From the IMG/VR virus record IMGVR_UViG_3300025896_000178, positions 1 to 25,770 of that record: a DNA stretch of 25,770 nucleotides; one strand, written 5' to 3'. The translations under genes were made by a program, and so were the position numbers. Below the pieces are notes generated by a model, which was given only the letters and a program-made list of their open reading frames with translations, was not told the DNA's origin and did not search any database. The stretch's first letter is position 1, and each line of letters starts with the position of its first letter. The DNA is from a virus. Positions 5,704-25,770 of this stretch are shown here, piece after piece.

Positions 5704-6602
5704 TGAAAAAAAACGACGAAAGAAGGTATCGATTTAGTTTTCAAATTGCAAATAAAGTAGGAGTAGTCATAAATAAAAGTGGTAGGTATCGACTTACTAG
5801 AGAACAAGAAAATAAATACTTCGATATTGTTCAAAACCAAGAGCATATTAAAAGGCTTTTCTTCGATATTGAAACTTCACCAAATATTGTTTACTCTTGG
5901 AGAACTGGTTGGAATCTTACTATTCATCCTGAGAGTATAATAGAAGAACGTAAAATTATCTGCATATCATATAAGTGGGAACACGAAGATAAAATCCACA
6001 GGCTTACTTGGGATAAAAATATGTGTGATAAGAAAATGTTACAAGAATTTATATCGGTGGCTAATAAGGCTGATGAAATGATTGCTCATAATGGCGACAG
6101 ATTTGATATTAAGTGGATTAGAACACGATGTATCTATCATAGAGTACAAATGTTCCCTGCTTATAAAACTCTTGATACATTAAAGAAAGCCAAGTTCGGA
6201 TTTTTATTCAATTCCAATAAATTGGATTATATCGCTCAATATTTAGGAGTTGGAGCAAAAGTTAAGCATAGTGGATTTGATATGTGGAAAGAGGTTATGA
6301 AAGGTAATCCTGATGCATTAGAAGAAATGGGTGTTTATTGTGATGGAGATATAGTTGTATTAGAGGATGTTTATTTGACAATGCAGAACTACATTAAACC
6401 AAATACTCACGCAGGAGTTATAAACGGAAATCTAAAATATTCTTGTTCTGTTTGCTCAAGCGAAAATACCAAATTACTTAAAAATAATGTTACTGAATTG
6501 GGAACTATCAAAAGACTAATGGAATGTCAAGATTGTAACCACGTTCACGAAATTAGTAATTCAGCTTATAAACTTCATTTAGAAATGAAAGATAAGTATT
6601 AG
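5703..6602 (+). CDS. DnaQ-like 3'-5' exonuclease with C-terminal zinc ribbon
   Basis: This 299-residue protein has an RNase H-fold DEDD exonuclease core. Exo I is FFDIETSP with D55 and E57; Exo II is AHNGDRFD with N130 and D135; Exo III is YCDGD with Y212 and D216. These are the residues that bind the two metal ions. Residues 1-45 are a basic module duplicated in the gene just upstream. The C-terminus has two CxxC pairs (C248/C251 and C275/C278) that should bind zinc. It lies at the end of the late operon, not with the replication genes on the other strand. A role in DNA processing or host DNA degradation is possible. A proofreading subunit is less likely because no polymerase gene is seen in the window. 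Confidence 0.85.
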   Translation: MKKNDERRYRFSFQIANKVGVVINKSGRYRLTREQENKYFDIVQNQEHIKRLFFDIETSPNIVYSWRTGWNLTIHPESIIEERKIICISYKWEHEDKIHRLTWDKNMCDKKMLQEFISVANKADEMIAHNGDRFDIKWIRTRCIYHRVQMFPAYKTLDTLKKAKFGFLFNSNKLDYIAQYLGVGAKVKHSGFDMWKEVMKGNPDALEEMGVYCDGDIVVLEDVYLTMQNYIKPNTHAGVINGNLKYSCSVCSSENTKLLKNNVTELGTIKRLMECQDCNHVHEISNSAYKLHLEMKDKY

Positions 6603-6643
6603 TTGCCTCGGTAGGATAGTAAAAAAATTAGTTGCCTCGTTGG
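6602..6643. repeat. Two separated copies of the 13-bp repeat (core GTTGCCTCG)
   Basis: The core GTTGCCTCG occurs at 6602-6610, starting on the last base of the exonuclease stop codon, and again at 6631-6639, where it continues as TTGGG. The same unit is in tandem at 18863-18917 and 22399-22532. Here the copies are 29 bases apart rather than in tandem. Confidence 0.8.
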
Positions 6644-6657
6644 GTGTAAAAAGAATA

Positions 6658-6697: not shown

Positions 6698-6831
6698 ATG
6701 AAGTTGTAGGGGTAAAAAACCACACTCATAAGTACTCATTCCCTATTCTGCCCGATAGGACTTAGCGTTCGTGAGAAGCCAAATTTCTCCAACACCTGTT
6801 ACTATACATATTTGACATCAAGTAACCGTTG
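6698..6831 (-). other. Gene-free stretch with three small hairpins (possible structured RNA, - strand)
   Basis: I see no coding frame worth calling. Read on the - strand after the tRNA-like gene, there are three successive hairpins: GTTACT/AGTAAC, GAGAA/TTCTC with a 7-base loop, and CCTAT/ATAGG. The middle one looks like an anticodon arm, but there is no T-arm consensus, so I do not call a second tRNA. A degraded tRNA cluster is one explanation. Confidence 0.3.
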
Positions 6832-6900
6832 ATGTTGTAGAAGGACTCGAACCTTCATCTACGCTTTACCGAGCGTATGCTACCATTACACCACACAACA
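6832..6900 (-). tRNA. tRNA-like gene with a shortened anticodon arm (identity unclear)
   Basis: On the - strand the acceptor stem TGTTGTG pairs with TACAACA. The D-arm contains TAATGGTA, and the T-arm is canonical (GAAGG-TTCGAGT-CCTTC). The total is 69 bases. The anticodon arm is 2-3 bases short: ACGCT/AGCGT encloses only a 6-base loop, CGGTAA, or TACGC/GCGTA encloses an 8-base loop, so no U33-anticodon frame is normal. A Thr (GGU) reading with U33 missing is one guess. U1-A72 is typical of bacterial tRNA-Gln. CCA is not encoded. It may be a decayed tRNA or a tRNA mimic. Confidence 0.6.
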
Positions 6901-8161: not shown

Positions 8162-8452
8162 CTATTTGTTTGTTTGACAAATGTACAACTCTATTTCTAT
8201 TTCCGCACTATCTTTTTCAACTATTTTTATAAATTTATCAAAATAATCAAATTCAAACTCTATAAAACCTCCTGACAGCACTTTAAAGCTATAAATCCAA
8301 TGACTTTTTTCTGAATTAGAGGCTTTATCCCACATTGGTTTTCCAACTTTACTAATACCACTCCAACGAATTTCTTTACCTAATGGTGTTTTCTGTACAC
8401 TGAAATCTAGCCAATATTTAATTTTCTGAACTTGTATATATCCTTTATCCAT
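8162..8452 (-). CDS. 96-residue hypothetical protein
   Basis: The product starts MDKGYIQVQKIKYWLDF and has alternating hydrophobic and charged residues with several tryptophans, suggesting a small beta-rich fold. It overlaps the helicase stop by 8 bases, so it is coupled to it. No motif or family was recognised. Confidence 0.6.
   Translation of the reverse strand: MDKGYIQVQKIKYWLDFSVQKTPLGKEIRWSGISKVGKPMWDKASNSEKSHWIYSFKVLSGGFIEFEFDYFDKFIKIVEKDSAEIEIELYICQTNK
8178..8185 (-). promoter_or_regulatory. Possible internal promoter element TACATTTG
   Basis: TACATTTG on the - strand matches TAnnTTTG and stands 21 bases before the ATG at 8156, inside the 3' end of the upstream gene. No -33 TTG is found at the right distance. 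Confidence 0.35.
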
Positions 8453-9665
8453 CTCTTCTAAAATTTGATAATGTATAATTCTTTTTATCCATTACTGATT
8501 TATAAATATTATCTTCAATGCCTCCTTTTGCAAATATCCAATAAATATCATTGGTTTGTCTTTCCATTGTAGTAAGCCTATCTCTTGATTGCCAATAACT
8601 TGTAGCTGAAAAATCAATGTTATAATAAACTAAATACTTAGCCTTTTTTAAACTTATACCTTCACGACCTGATACAATTTGTAAAGCTATACATTTATAA
8701 GTTGAATTAAATTCATCTAAATCCTCTGTTAGAATATCTCCATAAACAGATTTTAAAGCGTTTAATTCTTCTTTAAATTTGTAGAATATCGCTATTTTAT
8801 CGCTATTAAACTTTTCTTTAATAAATTCTGCCTTGGAATAATCAATTACTTTGGAAGTTCCATCCTCAAATTTGCAAGTTCCTGATGATAATTGATGAAC
8901 CTTTTGCATTAACTTAACTCCAGTATCTCCTAATATTAATCCACCTTTTCCATCAACTACTTTGTCACGCTTTAGTCTTTTTATGATTTCATAAGTTATA
9001 GATTGCATATCACAATATAAAATATGTTCGTTTACAGTAGATGTAAATCCTGCTTCCGCTTGAGTAAAAGTAAGGATATAAGGCTTAACCTTTTCCATTA
9101 TTTTTGATTCAATTCCATCTTTATAGACTTTTACTCTTGCGTACCCTAGATTTTGTTCTGTTACATTAACATAGTCATTTGCCCATCTATAAAAAGTAGC
9201 ATATTCCTTAAATGGAGTGCTATTTGAAACCTGTAACTGATGATACCATTGAGAGAACGATTCAGGAGTTGGTGTTCCTGATAAAAATATCATTGGAACT
9301 TTGCAAAACCTTTTTCGTATATCCTTTTGGTATTTACTTGATTTTGGAAATGCTGATAATCCGTGAGCCTCATCTAATATAATTATATCAAAGTCATTCT
9401 CTTCAATCGTGTGTAAAGATTCTTTATTTATAATAGTTATATCATATAAATATCCAACATTATCATAATCAGATTTTATTGAAGTAAATGCCTTAATCTT
9501 TGTAATAAATAGAACATTTTTAGCTCCATAATTATAAGCAGTTTCAAGAGCGGTAATAGTTTTTCCACAGCGGACTTGCATCGATAAATAAACAAAACCT
9601 TTTTCTCTTAATATAACAAGTGCTTCTTTAGCTATTCTTTCTTGATAATCTCTAATTTTAAACAT
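8445..9665 (-). CDS. SF2 DEAH-box helicase
   Basis: The motifs of a superfamily 2 helicase appear in order over 406 residues: an RDYQ start (5-8), motif I as QVRCGKT (30-36), motif II DEAH (98-101), motif III SGTP (129-132), a motif V-like SGREGISL, and motif VI QSRDRL (359-364). Motif I lacks the usual first glycine but keeps GKT. Phage proteins of this SNF2/DEAH type translocate on duplex DNA in replication or recombination. The start overlaps the HNH gene by 8 bases (ATGTTTAA). The first 31 residues are similar to a truncated frame at 10246-10341, so this gene appears to be one of two partly duplicated 5' ends flanking an HNH insertion. Confidence 0.88.
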   Translation of the reverse strand: MFKIRDYQERIAKEALVILREKGFVYLSMQVRCGKTITALETAYNYGAKNVLFITKIKAFTSIKSDYDNVGYLYDITIINKESLHTIEENDFDIIILDEAHGLSAFPKSSKYQKDIRKRFCKVPMIFLSGTPTPESFSQWYHQLQVSNSTPFKEYATFYRWANDYVNVTEQNLGYARVKVYKDGIESKIMEKVKPYILTFTQAEAGFTSTVNEHILYCDMQSITYEIIKRLKRDKVVDGKGGLILGDTGVKLMQKVHQLSSGTCKFEDGTSKVIDYSKAEFIKEKFNSDKIAIFYKFKEELNALKSVYGDILTEDLDEFNSTYKCIALQIVSGREGISLKKAKYLVYYNIDFSATSYWQSRDRLTTMERQTNDIYWIFAKGGIEDNIYKSVMDKKNYTLSNFRRDG

Positions 9666-10134
9666 AGTATCTGTTTTTTAATACATTATAAATAGTAGAT
9701 ATATCAACATTATATTTAATTGACATTTCTTTTATATTTCCTTTTCTTCCTAATATTGCATTTAATCTAATAAACTCAACTTGATTATTATTTAATTTTC
9801 TAATTGGATTTATTTTACCTAAAACATTATAAGAATGTATTTCGTTTTCTGAATGACTACACCACTCTAAATTAGATAAATTATTATTCAATCCATTTCC
9901 ATCAATATGATTTACACAAAGTTTTTGTTTAGGATTCTCTATAAAATAAATTGCAACTAATCTATGAATTAAAAATCTTTCTTGAATATTGTCTTTACTT
10001 AAAGTAACTCTCAAATATCCTTTAACGCTTTCTTTTTTTAATACTCTAATTTTTGAGTAATTATTACTTCTTACGTTTCCGTAATTAGATACTTCATAAT
10101 TTTCAAAATTGTAAATTGTTTTCCATTCTTCCAT
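9658..10134 (-). CDS. HNH homing endonuclease with NUMOD4 and C-terminal HTH
   Basis: The ATG at 10134 starts MEEWKTIYNFENYEVSNYG, the classic NUMOD4 opening, so an upstream in-frame ATG at 10158 is rejected. The HNH core is visible as IHRLVA (H57), VNHIDGN (N75, H76, D78), NNN (83-85) and NLEW (88-91). Residues about 113-155 look like a helix-turn-helix (NNNQVEFIRL, then SIKYNVDISTIYNVLK) for site recognition. Such genes spread by cutting conserved sites in essential genes. It lies exactly between a 31-codon helicase stump and the intact helicase, which marks the probable insertion site. It is preceded by its own promoter-like element and a structured leader. Confidence 0.9.
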   Translation of the reverse strand: MEEWKTIYNFENYEVSNYGNVRSNNYSKIRVLKKESVKGYLRVTLSKDNIQERFLIHRLVAIYFIENPKQKLCVNHIDGNGLNNNLSNLEWCSHSENEIHSYNVLGKINPIRKLNNNQVEFIRLNAILGRKGNIKEMSIKYNVDISTIYNVLKNRYYV

Positions 10135-10141
10135 AATAAGC

Positions 10142-10222
10142 AAAAACCTGCACATCAAAAGGTCGTAGTCTTTATCAATGCAGGAATTTAATAAAATTTT
10201 TAGTTGTAGCTACGACTCTACT
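10142..10222 (-). ncRNA. Candidate pseudoknot RNA upstream of the HNH gene
   Basis: On the - strand, arm 1 GTCGTAG (10216-10210) pairs with CTACGAC (10168-10162). Arm 2 CCTGCA (10184-10179) pairs with TGCAGG (10152-10147), so the stems interlock as an H-type pseudoknot. TTTTT follows at once (10146-10142), as in an intrinsic terminator. TATATTTG lies exactly 10 bases before arm 1. The same layout with different sequence occurs at 15617-15724. It could be an independent small RNA or a leader controlling the HNH gene, whose ATG is 7 bases after the U-run. Confidence 0.5.
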
Positions 10223-10226
10223 GATA

Positions 10227-10234
10227 CAAATATA
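10227..10234 (-). promoter_or_regulatory. Promoter -7 element TATATTTG for the pseudoknot RNA / HNH gene
   Basis: TATATTTG matches the Bacteroidota -7 consensus. The predicted start of transcription, 4-7 bases downstream, puts the pseudoknot at the very 5' end of the RNA. The -33 element is poor. Confidence 0.5.
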
Positions 10235-10245
10235 CAAAAAAATAA

Positions 10246-10341
10246 TTAAACTTCCATCGATAGATAAACAAATCCACATTCTTTTAGGATTTTAGTAGCT
10301 TTTTTAGCTATTTCGTCTTGATAAGGTCTTAATGTTAACAT
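10246..10341 (-). pseudogene. 31-codon stump of a second helicase gene
   Basis: The frame starts with ATG 3 bases after the mazG-like stop and reads MLTLRPYQDEIAKKATK, ending GFVYLSMEV before a TAA. It matches residues 1-31 of the helicase (MFKIRDYQERIAKEAL, ending GFVYLSMQV) and stops just before the RCGKT of motif I. At DNA level, 21 of 23 bases around the codons for FVYLSM-V are identical. It is best explained as the 5' end of the original helicase gene, cut off by the HNH element. Confidence 0.75.
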
Positions 10342-10344
10342 ACT

Positions 10345-10749
10345 TTATTTTATTAAGTTTTGCGCCATCTCTGTTAAATAGTGAATCCCTTCATTACCGT
10401 TCTGACCAATAGCCTTCATTCGTTCGTCAGATTTTTCTTCATCATAAACATCTTTTACAAATTGACCGTTTTCCATTTTGCCTGTTCTCTTTGAGATTAC
10501 ATTGTAAGCAGATTCAAGACAAGATTCTAAACTTAAACCTTGCATTTCTGCTTGGATTATGATAGTTACTAAAATATCTCCTAAAGCATCTTCTATTTCA
10601 TCTCTATCATTGTTCTCAATAGCTAATTCAAGTTCATTGACCTCTTCTATTGTTTTTAAACATTGTGCTGTTGGTGTCCCATTCTGTAGAATACCTTTTT
10701 TCCTACCCCATTCAATAACTAATCCCTCTAATTCTTGATAATTTTTCAT
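10345..10749 (-). CDS. MazG-like nucleoside triphosphate pyrophosphohydrolase
   Basis: This 134-residue all-helical protein has EEVNE (35-39) followed by EIEDALGD (51-58), the EExxE and ExxD metal-binding pairs of MazG-type NTP pyrophosphatases. KRTGKM follows at about 87-92. The family hydrolyses (d)NTPs to monophosphates, and phage members have been proposed to adjust nucleotide pools or alarmone levels. It overlaps the upstream small gene (ATGA). The helicase stump begins 3 bases after its stop, so mazG and helicase were probably adjacent before the HNH insertion. Confidence 0.85.
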   Translation of the reverse strand: MKNYQELEGLVIEWGRKKGILQNGTPTAQCLKTIEEVNELELAIENNDRDEIEDALGDILVTIIIQAEMQGLSLESCLESAYNVISKRTGKMENGQFVKDVYDEEKSDERMKAIGQNGNEGIHYLTEMAQNLIK

Positions 10750-10922
10750 TTTATTTGTTTTTTAACTTCTTGGTAATAAATATAATCTTCGTACTCTAAG
10801 TTTTTTATACTTAATATCTCATCAACTGCTATTAACGCTGCTTTTTTAGACTGATATTTATCATAGTTAGTTATACTATTGTATTTACTAACTAATTCTT
10901 TTGCTTTTTCTTTTGGTGTCAT
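10746..10922 (-). CDS. 58-residue TPKEKA-family small protein
   Basis: It starts MTPKEKAKELVSKY, then has AALIAVDEIL and ends YYQEVKKQIK. The same pattern (TPKEKA-ELV-KY, ALIAVDEIL, WQEVKQEI) is found in the 77-residue protein at 20558-20791, so this family has two copies in the window. It is probably a helical bundle. Short proteins of this type are common in Bacteroidota phages, with no assigned function. It overlaps both neighbours by 4 bases. Confidence 0.75.
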   Translation of the reverse strand: MTPKEKAKELVSKYNSITNYDKYQSKKAALIAVDEILSIKNLEYEDYIYYQEVKKQIK

Positions 10923-11110
10923 AATCCTTTTTCTTTTTTATAGATTTCTAATAATTGTTTAATTGTTAATTCTCCCATATCTTGATAAGTCAATGAATCT
11001 AAATATTCTCCAAATCTGATAGCAAATTCATTTCTTTCATTTAGTAATTGAGTTTCACACTCTTTTACATTAATTTTTCCTATATCGAATAAATGCAATA
11101 TTTTTCTCAT
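10919..11110 (-). CDS. 63-residue hypothetical protein
   Basis: This is a charged helical protein starting MRKILHLFDIGKINVKE and ending LLEIYKKEKGL. It overlaps each neighbour by 4 bases (ATGA type), which supports it as a real member of the cluster. No family was recognised. Confidence 0.65.
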   Translation of the reverse strand: MRKILHLFDIGKINVKECETQLLNERNEFAIRFGEYLDSLTYQDMGELTIKQLLEIYKKEKGL

Positions 11111-11358
11111 TGTATTAGCTCGTCTATGTTAATATTATACTTTTCAAGTATTTCTCCTATTGTTTCTGACATCTTTTCTATTCCGACAAAAATTCCTTCA
11201 GATTGAAGTGACATATTACTTTCTTCTTCTCTTTCTAATTTTTTTCGTAATTGTAAAATATCAAATAATGCACAAGCCATAGCTAATGATTTATTTACCC
11301 TTTCAAACTCTAATGTATCATCTGGATTAGATAGGTCGAATATTAATTTTGCTTTCAT
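11107..11358 (-). CDS. 83-residue protein with FDLSNPDD motif
   Basis: The N-terminus MKAKLIFDLSNPDDTLEFER, followed by NKSLAMACALFDIL, is a recurrent pattern of a small phage protein family whose function is not known to me. The C-terminal part (from about residue 43) is a Glu-rich helix. It overlaps neighbours by 4 bases on each side. Confidence 0.7.
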   Translation of the reverse strand: MKAKLIFDLSNPDDTLEFERVNKSLAMACALFDILQLRKKLEREEESNMSLQSEGIFVGIEKMSETIGEILEKYNINIDELIQ

Positions 11359-11516
11359 CTTATTGTTATTTTTTTATGTGTTATTAAAATTTCATTTACT
11401 ACTTTTAAAGTATCTCTTATGGCTTCTTTTATAAGCTCCTCTTGGTCTTTATCAGTATTTTGCCAACCGTAATTAGCTTCTAATTCTTTAAATACTTTTG
11501 TTACTGTTATTTTCAT
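11355..11516 (-). CDS. 53-residue hypothetical protein
   Basis: The short frame starts MKITVTKVFKELEANYGWQN and continues as one long charged helix ending in basic residues. The start overlaps the upstream stop and the stop overlaps the downstream ATG, so it fills the gap in the overlapping gene chain. No family was recognised. Confidence 0.65.
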   Translation of the reverse strand: MKITVTKVFKELEANYGWQNTDKDQEELIKEAIRDTLKVVNEILITHKKITIR

Positions 11517-11767
11517 AATCCATCTATTTCAAAATCAATACCATTTAATAAATATGTTCCTCCCAACGGTTCTTTAACGATAACTTTAAGACTAAAATCT
11601 AAATTATTTTCACGAATATCTTTAAAATCTTTTATCTCACTATCTTTTCCATAATAATCTCTTATTATTAATAGGGCATTTTCTCTATCAGAAGCTACCC
11701 CTATTACCATTCTTTCTTTATCCGAGTAATCATATTCTATGATTACAATTACCATTTTATTTTTCAT
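11513..11767 (-). CDS. 84-residue hypothetical protein, possibly leaderless
   Basis: The product starts MKNKMVIVIIEYDYSDKER and alternates beta strands and helices, suggesting a small alpha/beta fold. A TACATTTG element ends 4 bases before the ATG, so the transcript may start at or next to the initiation codon. It is the first gene after the HNH-AP2 gene. No family was recognised. Confidence 0.65.
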   Translation of the reverse strand: MKNKMVIVIIEYDYSDKERMVIGVASDRENALLIIRDYYGKDSEIKDFKDIRENNLDFSLKVIVKEPLGGTYLLNGIDFEIDGL

Positions 11768-11771
11768 AATT

Positions 11772-11779
11772 CAAATGTA
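11772..11779 (-). promoter_or_regulatory. Promoter-like TACATTTG 4 bases before an ATG
   Basis: It matches TAnnTTTG on the - strand. The spacing to the ATG at 11767 is the same 4 bases seen at 17527-17534. No -33 TTG was seen. Confidence 0.4.
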
Positions 11780-11799
11780 TTACTTTTACTTTGATTAAA

Positions 11800-12276
11800 C
11801 TAATATATCTCTTCATTTAATTTTTTATAATATGCTTCTGATGCATCAAAGTCATTCTCAAAATACCCTATATGAATTGTTTTACCATTTATAGTTATTC
11901 TACTTCTCCATTTTTTCATTGTATTGTGCCAACAGACACCTACATAATTAGAAGTTGACTTTATATGTTTTTTATTTGTATTTTCTCTAGTGGTTACTAT
12001 CTCTAAATTATTTACATTATTATTAGTTTTATCAAAATCAATATGATTAATAACAAGTTTATGCCCACATATTTTGTGATTTAAAAATGATTCAGCTACT
12101 AACTGATGGACTTGAATAGTTTTTATCTTTTTATCCTTATATATATTTATTTTACAATACCCATTAAGACTTATACTTTGTTTTAATATTAATTCTTTAT
12201 TATTTTTAATATTCCCTAAATTTGATATTTTATATAATCCTTCATATCCTTTAATATCTTTATATACTTCTTCCAT
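11800..12276 (-). CDS. HNH homing endonuclease with NUMOD4-like start and C-terminal AP2 domain
   Basis: This 158-residue protein opens with VYKDIKGYEGLYKISNLG (NUMOD4-like). The HNH core is QVHQLVAESF (H57), INHIDFDKTNNN (N77, H78, D80) and NNLEIV (89-94). Residues 110-155 (NYVGVCWHNTMKKWRSRI, then GYFENDFDASEAYYKK) form an AP2-type DNA-binding domain, known in many phage HNH proteins. It lies 5 bases after the primase-helicase stop. Unlike the other HNH gene, no duplicated target fragment is visible beside it. Confidence 0.88.
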   Translation of the reverse strand: MEEVYKDIKGYEGLYKISNLGNIKNNKELILKQSISLNGYCKINIYKDKKIKTIQVHQLVAESFLNHKICGHKLVINHIDFDKTNNNVNNLEIVTTRENTNKKHIKSTSNYVGVCWHNTMKKWRSRITINGKTIHIGYFENDFDASEAYYKKLNEEIY

Positions 12277-12281
12277 AATTT

Positions 12282-14612
12282 CTAATATATTTGTTCTTCT
12301 TCTATTTTATTACCATCTTCAATCATAAACCAATAACATCCGTTACTTTTATCAGATGAATATTTGAAGTTTTTATAGTTAGCGTACTTCTGCATCCAGA
12401 TCTGGAATCGCTTGCTTGATAAATTGTAGTTTTTCCAATCAGGATATTCTCGTTTGAAATTATCAAGATAAACTGTTTTATCTAATCTTACATTCATAGG
12501 AACATTTTCATTATCAGTTACGTATTCATTGAAAGCAGAATCAGTTTCAGCAATAAACTTACGCTCTTTAATATTCTTAGCATTTTGTGCTATAAGACCA
12601 AACTTTAAATAAACCTGTAAACAATAAACCATATAATTATCAAACCTAGAAAACTCAGCTAAATCCCAATCATCAAATAACTGGTGTCCAAATTCATCTA
12701 TTGGATTCAAATGCTTACCGTAGTACTGAGCTATCTCAACTTCCCATCTACGTCTATCATGTGAGTTTCCTTCTCCTTTAATTGCATAATTAGTTGATAT
12801 AACCATCTTTGGAGAATCTTCTACACTTAATTTAATAGCATCTTTATTCTTACGCTCCAATGTCATTCCTTCAGTAACTAAACTAAATTTATGCTCAAAG
12901 TTGAAATTCTTTACAACATCATCAAATACTAATACCTGAGTTTCTGCACTTAAAGTTTGGTATGCAAATGATTTTTTATCATCAAATGTTTTACCATCCA
13001 ATATAGATACGTTTCTAATTTTACAAATTCCCTGTACAAATAAACCTTTACCTGTCCCTCCTTCAGGATTGTCACTAATAACCTCATCATTAAGAATTAC
13101 TGCTTTATTATTAGTTTTGTTCTTATAAGATGATAGCAAATATCCAACTACAGATTCTAATGGAAGTGGTTCATTACTTGCTATATTAGATATAAATTTC
13201 TGATATTCATTAGTATGCTCCTCTAAAACTATAAAATCTCTATTTATTATCTGCTTTTCCCAAATATATCCTTTTATGTCAATATATTGAATAAGTTGAG
13301 CATAATCTTTAGTTACTTCAAGTATTCCATTATTATAAGCTATATAAGAACAATCTTTAGTATCCTTTAGCATTAAAAACTCAACAGTTTCAAGCATCAA
13401 TAGGTATTGTTCGCTAAACATATTATTGTTTTTAGAACAGTAAATCCACACTTCAATCTCTTCTCTTTTCATTAAATAACTTAATACAAAGTCTTTAATC
13501 TTTTCAATTGAAGTTTCTACAACCTTATTTTGTTTTACGTGAACCAATGTTGGTACTTGAGCATCGTGAGGAAAGTACTTCTTAAACCCATTTTTCTCAA
13601 GAAACATTTTATATTTAAGTGAGTTTACTTCAACCTTTCCTTTATCATTAATCCACCAAAATACAGCATCTTCATCATCTTGCTTTGTTTTATCATAAAC
13701 TTCCTCGGAAATACCAAATTCCTGCATTACTGCCTTCTTGCCATTCTTTAAACTTGACTTAATTCTATCAATTTTAACATAATCCTCAAAGAACTTAGAA
13801 TCGAATTGTCGTTTGGCATAAGCAGACTTAACTGTAGTTCTTGTTTCCTGCTCAGAGAAATCTCCTATTACAATATTATTAAAGATATATCCTTCAGCAG
13901 TATAAGCTGAAATTCCATATTCACAAAATGCTCCTGCTATATCAAAGATAAATGCATTTCGTTCTCCATCATTAAAACCTCTCTTCCAATTGAAAGCCAT
14001 AATCTTATCAATAATCTTGCCTTCATCAGTAAGTGGAAGCATTGGAACTTTTTCAGATAACTTATAACCTTCATCGAATAATTCAGTATCGAATAATTCT
14101 GCATCATAATTTGTGTAAATATTCTCATCATAAGATTCAAAACAAACTCTATCCACGTTACAGTTGGCAATATCAAAATATTCACTTGGGAATTTCTTAG
14201 AGAAAGCTTTAAAGTATTTTGGATGTGATTCTTTTGTAGCTACAGGAATCCTAACAACTCCTTTTATACCATTGCCACTTGGAGATATGAATAGTAAACA
14301 AAAATGTTTATTCTGCTTCAATTCTTCCAAATGTATGTTAATTGATTCATTATCGGGGTATTTGTCGTAATCTACAACCATTAGTCCTGAATGTGCTACT
14401 AAAGAATTGGAATTTCTCTCTGTAAATTCTCCTGCAAATAAGATACAAGGAAGTGTGTTTTTCTTACTCTTATCCCCACTTCTTATTTGTTCGATAGTAG
14501 TCTTTGATTTACCACTTTTAATACGCTCTACAACATCTTCTATTGACATTGGATATGGAATATCTTTTGACTTAAATAAGTCCTTAAAAACGCTTATTTT
14601 AATGTTTTTCAT
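12282..14612 (-). CDS. Primase-helicase: BT4734/VirE-N-type primase fused to SF3 helicase
   Basis: This 776-residue replication protein has a BT4734/VirE N-terminal-type region, with HSGLMVVDYDKY (74-85), SPSGNGIKGVVRI (110-122) and DRVCFESYD (154-162). This is an archaeo-eukaryotic primase-like core in this family. A helical PriCT-like stretch (about 200-270) leads to an SF3 AAA+ helicase. Its Walker A is EGGTGKG (517-523), Walker B is VLVFDD (560-565), the sensor Asn is in ISTN (605-608), and DRRRWE (619-624) carries the likely arginine finger. It should prime and unwind at the phage origin. It is transcribed leftward behind the methyltransferase gene, with 2 bases between them. Confidence 0.9.
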   Translation of the reverse strand: MKNIKISVFKDLFKSKDIPYPMSIEDVVERIKSGKSKTTIEQIRSGDKSKKNTLPCILFAGEFTERNSNSLVAHSGLMVVDYDKYPDNESINIHLEELKQNKHFCLLFISPSGNGIKGVVRIPVATKESHPKYFKAFSKKFPSEYFDIANCNVDRVCFESYDENIYTNYDAELFDTELFDEGYKLSEKVPMLPLTDEGKIIDKIMAFNWKRGFNDGERNAFIFDIAGAFCEYGISAYTAEGYIFNNIVIGDFSEQETRTTVKSAYAKRQFDSKFFEDYVKIDRIKSSLKNGKKAVMQEFGISEEVYDKTKQDDEDAVFWWINDKGKVEVNSLKYKMFLEKNGFKKYFPHDAQVPTLVHVKQNKVVETSIEKIKDFVLSYLMKREEIEVWIYCSKNNNMFSEQYLLMLETVEFLMLKDTKDCSYIAYNNGILEVTKDYAQLIQYIDIKGYIWEKQIINRDFIVLEEHTNEYQKFISNIASNEPLPLESVVGYLLSSYKNKTNNKAVILNDEVISDNPEGGTGKGLFVQGICKIRNVSILDGKTFDDKKSFAYQTLSAETQVLVFDDVVKNFNFEHKFSLVTEGMTLERKNKDAIKLSVEDSPKMVISTNYAIKGEGNSHDRRRWEVEIAQYYGKHLNPIDEFGHQLFDDWDLAEFSRFDNYMVYCLQVYLKFGLIAQNAKNIKERKFIAETDSAFNEYVTDNENVPMNVRLDKTVYLDNFKREYPDWKNYNLSSKRFQIWMQKYANYKNFKYSSDKSNGCYWFMIEDGNKIEEEQIY

Positions 14613-14614
14613 AA

Positions 14615-15604
14615 TTATATATTTTTAAATATGTGAGCTACTATATCTACTGTCCAAGAATTTCCTAAAGCCTTATATCTTTGTGTATTACTTACTCCCT
14701 CTGTATAATTATCAGGAAACGTTTGAAGTCTTTCACATTCTAACGGAATTAACTTTCTTGCAAACTCTCTTTCATAATCGAATACTTTTGCTTGATGATT
14801 CCCTCCAGTAATTGTGGTAAGACAAGGACTTTTTCCAAACTCATCATATACTCGTTTAATATTATCATTTCCATTCATATTTAATACGGCTATCTTTTGA
14901 CATTTGTCATATCTAATAACTCCATAAGGAACTCCTTTATACATATTAGCAGTAAGACAAGCAGACTTTCCATTTATTAAGTTTCTATGGTATTCCCATC
15001 TTTGTTTACCGTTTCTTAATCTGCTCATATAATCTATAGCTTCATAGCTTAAATAATACTTATCTTCTACAGTTTCTTCCAAAATATCTGATAATACCAA
15101 CTTCTTATCTGTTGGTTGTTCTATCCCTTCTATGTTAGTCCAATAATACCTAACTCTATTTTGAGCTGAAAGAAGTGAACTATTTATAATAATAGGAGTT
15201 ACTCCAACATAATCTGATATTACATCTTGATACTCTTGTTTCATTCTAACATTTTCCAATAGAAATTTAACATTAGGATTTAACATTTTAATATGATTTA
15301 AAATATCAGAAAACTCAAAGAATAATTTACTTCTCTCATCGTCAAAGTTTAATTGCTTTCCTGCGATACTAAATCCTTGACAAGGACTTCCTCCAATTAC
15401 CAAATCAATAGTAGTTAAATCTATATCCCACTCTTTCCAATTTACTATACTACCCATTTGGATTGTATTAGGATAGTTTTTAGTTGTAACCTGAATAGCA
15501 TATTTATCTATTTCACTTGCGTAGTAGTTATCTACTTTAATTCCTGCTTTTTCTAAAGCAACTTGACCTGCCGATATACCATCGAATAAACTTAATACAT
15601 TCAT
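14615..15604 (-). CDS. C5 cytosine DNA methyltransferase
   Basis: The motifs of a complete C5-methyltransferase are in order over 329 residues. Motif I is LSLFDGISAGQ (4-14), which binds S-adenosylmethionine. Motif IV is GGSPCQGFS (71-79) with catalytic C75, motif VI is ENVR (117-120), and motif VIII is QNRVRYYW (148-155). Motifs IX-X lie near the end (ECERLQTFPDNYTE and YKALGNSW). The target-recognition region is about 165-265. No restriction gene lies beside it, so it is likely an orphan phage enzyme protecting phage DNA from host restriction. It has its own structured leader and promoter-like element. Confidence 0.93.
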   Translation of the reverse strand: MNVLSLFDGISAGQVALEKAGIKVDNYYASEIDKYAIQVTTKNYPNTIQMGSIVNWKEWDIDLTTIDLVIGGSPCQGFSIAGKQLNFDDERSKLFFEFSDILNHIKMLNPNVKFLLENVRMKQEYQDVISDYVGVTPIIINSSLLSAQNRVRYYWTNIEGIEQPTDKKLVLSDILEETVEDKYYLSYEAIDYMSRLRNGKQRWEYHRNLINGKSACLTANMYKGVPYGVIRYDKCQKIAVLNMNGNDNIKRVYDEFGKSPCLTTITGGNHQAKVFDYEREFARKLIPLECERLQTFPDNYTEGVSNTQRYKALGNSWTVDIVAHIFKNI

Positions 15605-15616
15605 AATTAATTAAAT

Positions 15617-15713
15617 TAAAAAAACCTCAAGAGAAAAGGCATCCACTCCAAATCTCTCAAGGCTCTTGTTGGTTATAAAACCAATATGCTTTTTTATAGG
15701 TGGATGTTCTACC
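15617..15713 (-). ncRNA. Candidate pseudoknot RNA upstream of the methyltransferase
   Basis: On the - strand, arm 1 CATCCAC (15706-15700) pairs with GTGGATG (15646-15640). Arm 2 CCTTGAGAGA (15662-15653) pairs, with two G-U wobbles, with TCTCTTGAGG (15634-15625). The stems interlock. A separate hairpin TTGGTT/AACCAA (15684-15669) sits between the two 5' arms. A U-run follows directly (15624-15617). The promoter-like TACTTTTG ends 10 bases before arm 1, as in the copy at 10142-10234. The fold is conserved without sequence conservation, which argues for function. Confidence 0.55.
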
Positions 15714-15716
15714 TGA

Positions 15717-15724
15717 CAAAAGTA
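15717..15724 (-). promoter_or_regulatory. Promoter -7 element TACTTTTG for the RNA / methyltransferase unit
   Basis: It matches TAnnTTTG on the - strand. Since the upstream SSB-like gene ends at a terminator (16025-16059), a promoter is needed here to transcribe the methyltransferase and the genes that follow. The -33 element is not clear. Confidence 0.5.
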
Positions 15725-15777: not shown

Positions 15778-15920
15778 TTCTTGTAAGAATTTGGAGTGCC
15801 TAAAGTGCTTAAATAATTTTATTTTTTCAACTTTTTTTTCATTTTATGCTTTTGTGTTTTGGGGGTGTCTAAAAATCAACAACATTTAGGCACTTTAGGC
15901 ACTCTAAATTCCTACAAGAA
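15778..15920. repeat. 37-bp inverted repeat with 69-base spacer
   Basis: Arms 15778-15814 and 15884-15920 are complementary at 34 of 37 positions, and the three differences are transitions that keep G-T pairing possible. Each arm contains a direct repeat, AGTGCCTAA/AGTGCTTAA-like. The spacer is pyrimidine-rich with a GGGGG run. It lies in the gene-free stretch 15725-16092 between the methyltransferase promoter and the SSB-like gene. It may be a lagging-strand or single-strand origin, a protein-binding site or a transcribed hairpin. Confidence 0.85.
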
Positions 15921-18274: not shown

Positions 18275-18966
18275 TATTTCTTTAGATTTTTAGTTATTTT
18301 TTCAATATATGCTTCTTTTATACTTATTGCTTCTTTAAGTCTTTCCTTAATTAAGTCAATCATAACTTCATCACGTTCAACAACTATAAGATGATAAAAT
18401 TCTTCTCCCATAATAATACAGTAATTAAAGAAATATGCTCTTACTGAATTACTACACATCATCTGCATCTGCATCTGAGCTATATATTCCTTATCAATAT
18501 TTTCATCAGCCACAATCTTAAAGAACTTAGTTGCTCTTGGACACTTAATCTCAAGAATTGCATCTTTTCCAACTACTCCATCAGGAGAAGCTCCAGCGTG
18601 TTGTCCATAAGGAAACATAAACGATTCAGTAGCTTCAGGATAAAGCTCTTTAAATTTTGCAAAAGCCAATGGTTCTAAGTCAATTCCCCTTTGCATGTCA
18701 GCTCCTTTATAACTATCCTCAACCTGACCGTACATTTGCTCAATTGCCTTCTCAATTGCATAGGTTTCTCCCGTTTGACCTAATCCTTTAATTCCTAATA
18801 ACTTGTGGATAGAACTAGCGGTAAATTTTCCCCATCGGTCTTTAAACCATTCTTCACTTCTTTGGGTTGCCTCGTTGGGTTGCCTCGTTGGGTTGCCTCG
18901 TTGGGTTGCCTCGTTGGGGTAAAATTCTTCTAAATGCTCTAATGCTTTTTGTCTATTACTAATCAT
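18274..18966 (-). CDS. YqaJ-type viral recombinase exonuclease
   Basis: This is a lambda-exonuclease-like PD-(D/E)xK fold. It has RSEEWFKDRWGKFTASSIHK (36-55), then LEP with E98, GASPDG with D129, LEIK with E139 and K141, and AQMQMQM with Q164. These are the family's metal-binding and catalytic residues. It should resect double-stranded ends to give 3' tails for annealing; the partner annealing protein is not obvious here. Residues about 18-36 (starting NEATQRGNPTRQP) are translated from four copies of a 13-bp DNA repeat found elsewhere outside genes. The nuclease domain starts immediately after, so the insertion is in frame and probably tolerated. Confidence 0.88.
   Translation of the reverse strand: MISNRQKALEHLEEFYPNEATQRGNPTRQPNEATQRSEEWFKDRWGKFTASSIHKLLGIKGLGQTGETYAIEKAIEQMYGQVEDSYKGADMQRGIDLEPLAFAKFKELYPEATESFMFPYGQHAGASPDGVVGKDAILEIKCPRATKFFKIVADENIDKEYIAQMQMQMMCSNSVRAYFFNYCIIMGEEFYHLIVVERDEVMIDLIKERLKEAISIKEAYIEKITKNLKK
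18863..18917. repeat. Four tandem 13-bp repeats inside the YqaJ gene
   Basis: GTTGCCTCG cores start at 18866, 18879, 18892 and 18905, exactly 13 bases apart, separated by TTGG. Because 13 is not a multiple of 3, successive copies are read in different frames and give a 13-residue period (starting RGNPTRQPNEATQ) in the protein. Confidence 0.95.
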
Positions 18967-22350: not shown

Positions 22351-22398
22351 TATATAAATGTTTGATATAAATAATATTTTAACAATTATTTAACACTT

Positions 22399-22532
22399 GG
22401 GTTGCCTCGTTGGGTTGCCTCGGTAGGTTGCCTCGTTTGGTTGCCTCGTTTGGTTGCCTCGTTTGGTTGCCTCGTTGGGTTGCCTCGCTGGGTTGCCTCG
22501 CTGGGTTGCCTCGCTGGGTTGCCTCGCTGGGT
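22399..22532. repeat. Ten tandem 13-bp repeats (core GTTGCCTCG)
   Basis: Cores start at 22401, 22414, 22427, 22440, 22453, 22466, 22479, 22492, 22505 and 22518, each exactly 13 bases apart. The four linker bases vary in blocks (TTGG, GTAG, TTTG, CTGG), as after local duplication. The array lies in non-coding DNA; open frames through it are artefacts of the repeat. The GC content is far above that of the surroundings. Confidence 0.95.
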
Positions 22533-25667: not shown

Positions 25668-25670
25668 GTG

Positions 25671-25770
25671 GCAGATCCTGATGAGGCAGATCCTGATGAG
25701 GCAGATCCTGATGAGGCAGATCCTGATGAGGCAGATCCTGATGAGGCAGATCCTGATGAGGCAGATCCTG
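25671..25770. repeat. Perfect 15-bp tandem repeat running off the window
   Basis: GCAGATCCTGATGAG is repeated 6.67 times without a single change up to the last base. At about 53% GC it contrasts with the AT-rich surroundings. In one + frame it reads ADPDE repeats and stays open, but no start or context supports a gene. Confidence 0.95.

Follow-up and report, generated by a model that had tools for sequence, protein, structure and literature searches.

Kissing-loop leader RNAs with exchangeable pairing sequences as probable attenuators in flavobacterial phages

Introduction

Why should a phage place two short RNAs of the same layout and of entirely different sequence directly before two unrelated genes? 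The window analyzed here, a stretch of viral DNA of 25,770 nucleotides (IMG/VR record IMGVR_UViG_3300025896_000178), raises this question on its minus strand, where one such unit precedes a homing endonuclease gene and the other a DNA methyltransferase gene. The original prediction described both as pseudoknots with a TAnnTTTG element, a 10-base gap, two interlocked stems and an immediate U-run, and proposed a small RNA family or an attenuator. Here we examine the fold of these units, their distribution among phages, the genes behind them and the turnover of their pairing sequences, and we weigh what they may do.

Results

The two units share a kissing-loop fold

The stated coordinates, the TAnnTTTG element and the U-runs were all recovered on the minus strand, as were the gap of 10 bases and the two stems, including the 10 pairs of the second stem of unit 2, two of which are G-U. 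The predicted pairings hold, but a bare H-type pseudoknot does not describe the RNA, in which two loops kiss and two more hairpins, P1 and P4, take part in the fold. Because the last bases of the 10-base gap form the 5' strand of P1 (GTAG/CTAC in unit 1, GTAG/CTAT in unit 2), what had been called stem 1 is a loop-loop helix, here termed K, that joins the loop of P1 to that of the terminator hairpin. The 3' half of K in unit 1 is presented by P4 (AAAG/CTTT) inside the loop of the terminator hairpin P3; P4 of unit 2 is only GG/CC. The H-type pseudoknot alone was dropped for the kissing fold after P1 and P4 were found to covary. The parts of the two units are as follows.

10142-10234, minus strand: whole unit 1 (TAnnTTTG, P1, linker, P3/P4, U-run)
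10227..10234, minus strand: unit 1 Bacteroidota -7 promoter element TATATTTG, present in 40/40 promoter-blind unit-1-type homologues
10206..10221, minus strand: unit 1 hairpin P1, GTAG-(A GTCGTAG)-CTAC, with compensated variants in homologues
10210..10216, minus strand: unit 1 kissing strand K5', GTCGTAG, in the P1 loop, compensated in all 46 K-blind homologues
10147..10184, minus strand: unit 1 terminator hairpin P3, CCTGCA/TGCAGG (10184-10179 with 10152-10147), 5/6 pairs changed on two sides
10173-10170 with 10161-10158, minus strand: unit 1 inner hairpin P4, AAAG/CTTT, within P3, 3/4 pairs changed on two sides
10162..10168, minus strand: unit 1 kissing strand K3', CTACGAC, in the P4 loop, from covariation and complementarity
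10142..10146, minus strand: unit 1 U-run TTTTT, intrinsic terminator, nearly invariant in the 28-sequence alignment
15617-15724, minus strand: whole unit 2 (TAnnTTTG, P1, linker with P2, P3, U-run)
15717..15724, minus strand: unit 2 -7 promoter element TACTTTTG, from sequence
15696..15712, minus strand: unit 2 hairpin P1, GTAG/CTAT, loop AACATCCAC, from the predicted fold and compensated variants
15700..15706, minus strand: unit 2 kissing strand K5', CATCCAC, from the compensatory pair L575/L576
15669..15684, minus strand: unit 2 linker hairpin P2 (optional), TTGGTT-TTAT-AACCAA, from sequence and predicted fold
15625..15662, minus strand: unit 2 terminator hairpin P3, CCTTGAGAGA/TCTCTTGAGG, with weak P4 GG/CC, from sequence and predicted fold
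15640..15646, minus strand: unit 2 kissing strand K3', GTGGATG, from sequence and complementarity
15618..15624, minus strand: unit 2 U-run, seven T, from sequence

Five nucleotides separate TATATTTG from P1 in unit 1, whose RNA would be expected to begin at 10221 or an adjacent position, and an A/T-rich linker lies between its P1 and P3. P2 belongs to unit 2 and is absent from the unit-1 type. The predicted energy of P3-P4 is -11.8 kcal/mol in unit 1 and about -18 kcal/mol in unit 2, and that of K alone is about -8.5 to -9 kcal/mol. Isolated pseudoknot-like pairings are frequent in the window; the full layout occurs exactly twice, at these two positions.

The pairings covary among phage relatives

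A blastn search with unit 1 gave matches in 34 Flavobacterium and 4 Polaribacter phage records, and a search for the conserved 5' pattern yielded 51 contig stretches, from which 28 sequences were aligned. Under a structure of P1, K, P3 and P4, 99.8% of the 588 cells of this alignment are paired. Nine pairs changed on both sides, five in P3, three in P4 and one in K (C-G in 19 sequences, A-U in 9), and the covariation score of 0.266 compares with 0.056 in shuffles and at most 0.052 with the partners slid. P1 and most of K are invariant in this alignment because the search pattern had fixed both, and a new search was therefore made with the P4 flanks only (TGATAAAGN8CTTTTGA), blind to K and to the promoter. 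It returned 46 distinct units with eight K sequences, every one with a perfectly complementary K5' upstream; the remaining matches held no such unit, and the three of them in which P3 is weak look like coding sequence that fits the pattern by chance.

Promoter and start codon could be scored in the 40 of these 46 units that had enough flank. TAnnTTTG stands 4-6 nt before P1 in 40/40 (5 nt in 36; background 1%), and an ATG follows 9-19 nt after the start of the U-run in 39/40. P1 is paired in the same 40 units in four variants (GTAG/CTAC, TCGG/CCGA, TAGG/CCTA and GCAG/CTGT), and homologues of unit 2 have compensated P1 variants of their own (AAGTAT/ATACTT, AACAG/CTGTT, GCCG/CGGC and AGTTG/CAACT). 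TAnnTTTG is the -7 consensus of Bacteroidota promoters (PMC7366714), and its fixed spacing makes the first base of P1 the expected transcription start. The region upstream of the -7 element, where a -33 TTTG element was sought, has only an AT-rich, weakly T-biased profile. P4 reaches 4 bp in 66% of units compared with 32% when the flanks are shuffled, the unit-1 type has conserved unpaired bases outside K, and the linker between P1 and P3 spans 10-49 nt (median about 20, usually at least 15). Unit 1 and its close relatives, as read by eye, have no conserved ATG frame before the terminator of the trp leader-peptide type.

Comparison of homologues thus establishes P1, K, P3 and P4 together with the promoter spacing, the U-run and the ATG spacing. 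Compensatory changes in both stems, whose absence from further genomes would have counted against the original prediction, are present in the 28-sequence alignment, in the K-blind sample and in the pair L575/L576 described below, in agreement with its claim that pairing is kept while sequence changes.

The family is widespread in flavobacterial phages

Units were counted with a layout scanner (promoter, P1, K of 6-9 nt, P3 and U-run) that is strict and misses some of them. With the promoter included, AT-rich phage loci totaling 1.02 Mb gave 60 units and their dinucleotide shuffle gave 1, and when the promoter was not required TAnnTTTG was still present in 50/62 best units. A second sample was independent of the RNA, its 101 loci (1.35 Mb) having a primase-helicase gene as their sole selection criterion; here the scanner found 77 units, of which 48 have the promoter, against 1 and 0 in shuffles. 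Far from being isolated, the two window units have dozens of homologues. Altogether we collected 140 units of distinct sequence, among which K takes 59 forms (43 after merging shared 6-mers), a set that was pre-filtered for having an ORF and of which a few members are likely chance; on account of this filter its ATG statistic was discarded, and figures from the unfiltered 40 and 82 units are used instead. Two or three units each occur in phage hattifnatt9-1, where units lie at 13312 and 14346, and in several contigs, as do two in the window.

The unit-1 pattern had 0 matches in 84,980 prokaryote genomes, and the unit-2 pattern, searched in prokaryote genomes, found one AT-rich real unit, in a Bacteroidetes MAG contig (L270), the other matches being chance. 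Searching the named phages with unit 2 by blastn gave AT-rich noise only. The family is not universal, as Polaribacter phage Leef_1 and Flavobacterium phage elemoF have no convincing unit. Rfam searches, run with both gathering and relaxed cut-offs, gave no credible match to the window units or to 15 further loci of several K types, and no Rfam family reached its gathering score over any unit, which fits the earlier statement that no known riboswitch matched; a SpF19 match (E 0.006) was rejected as far below the family cut-off. No description of these RNAs was found in open-access papers. The family is thus widespread in flavobacterial phages and apparently undescribed.

Diverse genes follow at a set distance

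Pfam matches support the identities first proposed for the two genes behind the window units.

9658..10134, minus strand: NUMOD4-HNH homing endonuclease behind unit 1, ATG at 10134, 7 nt past the U-run (Pfam PF07463 and PF13392; PADLOC HEase)
14615..15604, minus strand: C5-cytosine DNA methyltransferase behind unit 2, ATG at 15604 (Pfam PF00145)

An ORF follows 79/82 distinct promoter-bearing units of all types, nearly always 9-25 nt after P3, against a background in the same loci of 10% of random positions with an ORF start 5-25 nt downstream. Among 65 downstream proteins, Pfam recognized 32 HNH_3, 26 NUMOD4, 4 GIY-YIG and 4 DEAD/ResIII helicases, with a C5 methylase, an N6/N4 methylase, primases, YopX and HTH proteins as single cases. 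The original prediction considered that the units could control selfish or defense-related genes; homing endonucleases do make up about half of the sampled cases, but a restriction to such genes does not hold, as helicases, primases and methyltransferases are found as well. The controlled genes are best explained as early phage genes generally, and their products are too diverse to be the binding partner of one RNA.

Copies lacking the promoter are also informative. The unit is kept before methyltransferase orthologues in L003, L004 and L025, with a short U-run (3-5 U) and no -7 element, and these units, like those of L573 and L579, which also lack a -7 element, stand directly behind the preceding gene. 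Such copies sit between genes of one operon and still end before an ATG, which supports a cis element with a role within operons. The choice first offered between a small RNA family and an attenuator stands, and it is tipped toward the attenuator by the ATG that regularly comes next and by the copies that lie within operons and have no promoter. A further promoterless unit, with K AAGTAGTGA, was observed at L237:994-1065, with similar ones in L502 and L503; that of L237 also scores on the opposite strand, like a bidirectional terminator. Four loci (L083:4130-4165, L235, L218 and L089:10050) share AATAGTT..GGTAATCTTTAAACC between unit and ORF, perhaps a second leader motif.

The leader seems to travel with the homing gene, since the cassette is present or absent before the same helicase in related phages. 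Directly behind unit 1 and its endonuclease, the window has a full helicase gene (8445-9665, minus strand), and just upstream of unit 1 lies a 31-codon copy of the helicase N-terminus (MLTLRPYQDEIAKKATKILKECGFVYLSMEV; 10247-10343, minus strand), a sign of cassette insertion with N-terminal duplication. The same helicase is preceded by unit and endonuclease in L206, L226, L228, L248, L249, L394 and others, and the site is empty in L244, L344, L210 and others. A second NUMOD4-HNH endonuclease of the window, with an AP2-like C-terminus (11800-12276, minus strand), lies 5 nt behind the primase-helicase gene and has no unit of its own.

The kissing sequence turns over rapidly

The leader of the primase-helicase gene offers one orthologous place at which K can be followed. 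A unit is present in 35/67 distinct leaders, compared with 0.15% of shuffled leaders, and the 35 units carry 23 different K sequences; the element is dispensable, given that about half of these leaders have no unit by these criteria. Loci L139 and L493 are near-identical upstream, up to and including the -7 element, and near-identity resumes right after the terminator and extends into a downstream protein that is 99% identical, but the intervening RNA is unrelated (K CATCCAC in one, GCATCAC in the other), so that the replaced segment spans transcription start to terminator only. Loci L575 (CATCCAC/GTGGATG) and L576 (CGTCCAC/GTGGACG), with upstream flanks 98% and coding starts 96% identical, differ in K by an A-to-G change in one strand that is matched by a T-to-C change in its partner, a fresh compensatory pair. 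Comparison thus also establishes the turnover of K.

Two unit-1-type RNAs occur on each of seven contigs (G014, G029, G030, G044, G052, G055 and G063), with differing K each time, despite identical K being common across phages. Within loci, 0/36 unit pairs share a K 6-mer, which is not significant against the 1.4-2.4 expected from between-locus rates, so that orthogonality of K within one genome, and with it a separation into channels, is suggestive and a lead only. Homing-gene lineage was ruled out as the cause of K, as one K can stand before unrelated genes and one gene behind different K. The rapid exchange suggests that K may have a partner outside its own molecule; none was found.

Other features of the window

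A 13-bp tandem repeat, TTGGGTTGCCTCG, occurs at 18862-18918 (4 copies), where it lies within the reading frame of a YqaJ recombinase, and at 22397-22532 (10 copies), with a few related copies near 6600-6650. Upstream of unit 2, a long inverted repeat, GAGTGCCTAAAGTGC/GCACTTTAGGCACTC (15783-15797 and 15890-15904), is accompanied by further AT-rich repeats and could be an origin or partition site. A 15-bp tandem repeat, GGCAGATCCTGATGA, runs into the window end at 25670-25770 in 6.7 perfect copies. A tRNA-like gene lies at 6831-6900 (minus strand); Rfam accepts it as a tRNA, and its anticodon is left unsettled by ARAGORN (gt only).

Discussion

Our analysis indicates that the units are probably 5' leaders of phage transcripts that act as promoter-proximal attenuators, with K serving as an exchangeable specificity tag. 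The order of promoter, leader, terminator and ATG, with its set spacings, makes a cis-acting leader the simplest reading, and promoter, structured leader, intrinsic terminator and gene follow one another in the order and closeness that an attenuator requires. What is inferred is the start and stop of transcription, partial read-through, regulation, the direction of the kissing effect, the signal and any action in trans. RNA polymerase would start at the first base of P1 or next to it, and P1 would fold first, displaying a 7-9 nt address, K5'. P3 with its inner P4 would emerge next, its loop showing the complement, K3'; P4 and K would form before P3, which would close once its 3' strand has emerged. 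The loops would then kiss, making the RNA of about 75-95 nt compact. Most polymerases would release at the U-run while the remainder read on into the gene, whose ATG lies 9-21 nt further. With a linker of 10-49 nt, K and P3 can probably coexist, and K would clamp the terminator. The kissing state would be the natural control point, as it could stabilize P3 or slow its formation, and read-through would change if a ligand, a protein or another RNA occupied either loop; neither a ligand nor a protein nor a competing antiterminator fold was found for the units.

Promoters closely followed by a terminator are familiar from late-gene attenuation in phage lambda, where the terminator shortly after the promoter in pR'-tR' gives a short leader RNA until Q allows read-through. 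The phage units share the promoter and nearby terminator before a gene, but they recur within one genome ahead of various early genes and their kissing fold is conserved; an antitermination protein was not identified for them. Leader attenuators with kissing loops are likewise a known kind, and the unusual part here is the turnover of the address, since leaders acting in cis seldom change so fast, and always with compensation, at one and the same genomic position.

This turnover raises the possibility, though not a likely one, that K is an address selected to differ. Terminated leaders would act in trans on nascent leaders with the same address, phages with the same K would interfere, and genes within one phage would run on separate channels. 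Such selection would fit the swapping of K and the surrounding RNA as cassettes between near-identical phages. A related and similarly doubtful reading makes each unit a stand-alone gene for a trans-acting small RNA, with K acting on RNAs of the same K from its own or a co-infecting phage and attenuation being secondary. Loop sequences act in this way in plasmid incompatibility and in P1/P7 c4 immunity. Structure at both RNA ends would suit such a gene, as would the fast turnover in near-identical phages (the L139/L493 segment swap) and the differing K of units that share a locus or contig, but it leaves the ATG at a set distance after almost every unit and the promoterless copies inside operons unaccounted for, the 0/36 count is not significant, and no trans target was identified. 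In the C4 antisense RNA of P1/P7 and in ColE1 RNAI/RNAII, the loop sets specificity and changes by compensation between relatives. The phage units resemble these short RNAs in having specificity-setting, compensating loop sequences; they differ in holding both kissing partners in one RNA of about 80 nt, in which action in trans would be only an inferred addition, and the Rfam covariance model for c4 antisense RNA gave no match to them.

That the kissing fold instead binds a small molecule that changes during infection, as a metabolite riboswitch, seems improbable. In the guanidine-IV (mepA) riboswitch, the loop of a 5' hairpin pairs with that of the terminator hairpin directly before the gene, and this kissing opposes the terminator, setting the balance of termination and read-through (PMC11611296). 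The gross layout of the phage units, with a 5' hairpin loop pairing with the loop of a terminator hairpin, is alike (PMC11611296), and the unit-1 type has the conserved unpaired bases outside K noted above. However, these bases differ between K types and K itself varies freely, so that no shared binding pocket is apparent. The phage units also differ in their want of an Rfam match, in standing before many kinds of phage genes that have no metabolism in common, and in a linker, usually of at least 15 nt, with which kissing and terminator look compatible.

It is more improbable still that the units form part of a type III toxin-antitoxin-like pair, in which the RNA would restrain the nuclease encoded next to it. 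The order of promoter, pseudoknotted RNA, leaky terminator and nuclease gene is identical to that of ToxIN, and about half of the sampled downstream genes are HNH nucleases, with a few GIY-YIG. Yet the units at 10142-10234 and 15617-15724 are single, with no tandem RNA repeats, and their terminator belongs to the fold itself; RNAs of the same type also stand ahead of genes for methyltransferases, primases, helicases and HTH proteins, and the same protein may be preceded by RNAs of different K. The downstream genes are unrelated to ToxN and to one another, and none of the 25 downstream families listed is a ToxN/AbiQ-type endoribonuclease. Chance pairing in AT-rich DNA, for which the frequent isolated pairings of the window might speak, is ruled out by covariation and by the counts of the full layout against shuffles (77 versus 1 in the primase-helicase loci).

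The leader attenuator favored here is built from unusually modular parts, namely promoter, address loop, a terminator with the complementary loop, and gene, and its variable yet self-matching pairing address points to a new, address-coded gene switch. It is a candidate mechanism for limiting or timing the expression of phage and homing endonuclease genes in hosts that lack Shine-Dalgarno control, and it would be a natural source of orthogonal kissing-loop terminators for work in Bacteroidota. The turnover of the address suggests competition between phages at the RNA level; if K is indeed an address selected to differ, these leaders would constitute an RNA incompatibility or superinfection system between phages that share the same K.
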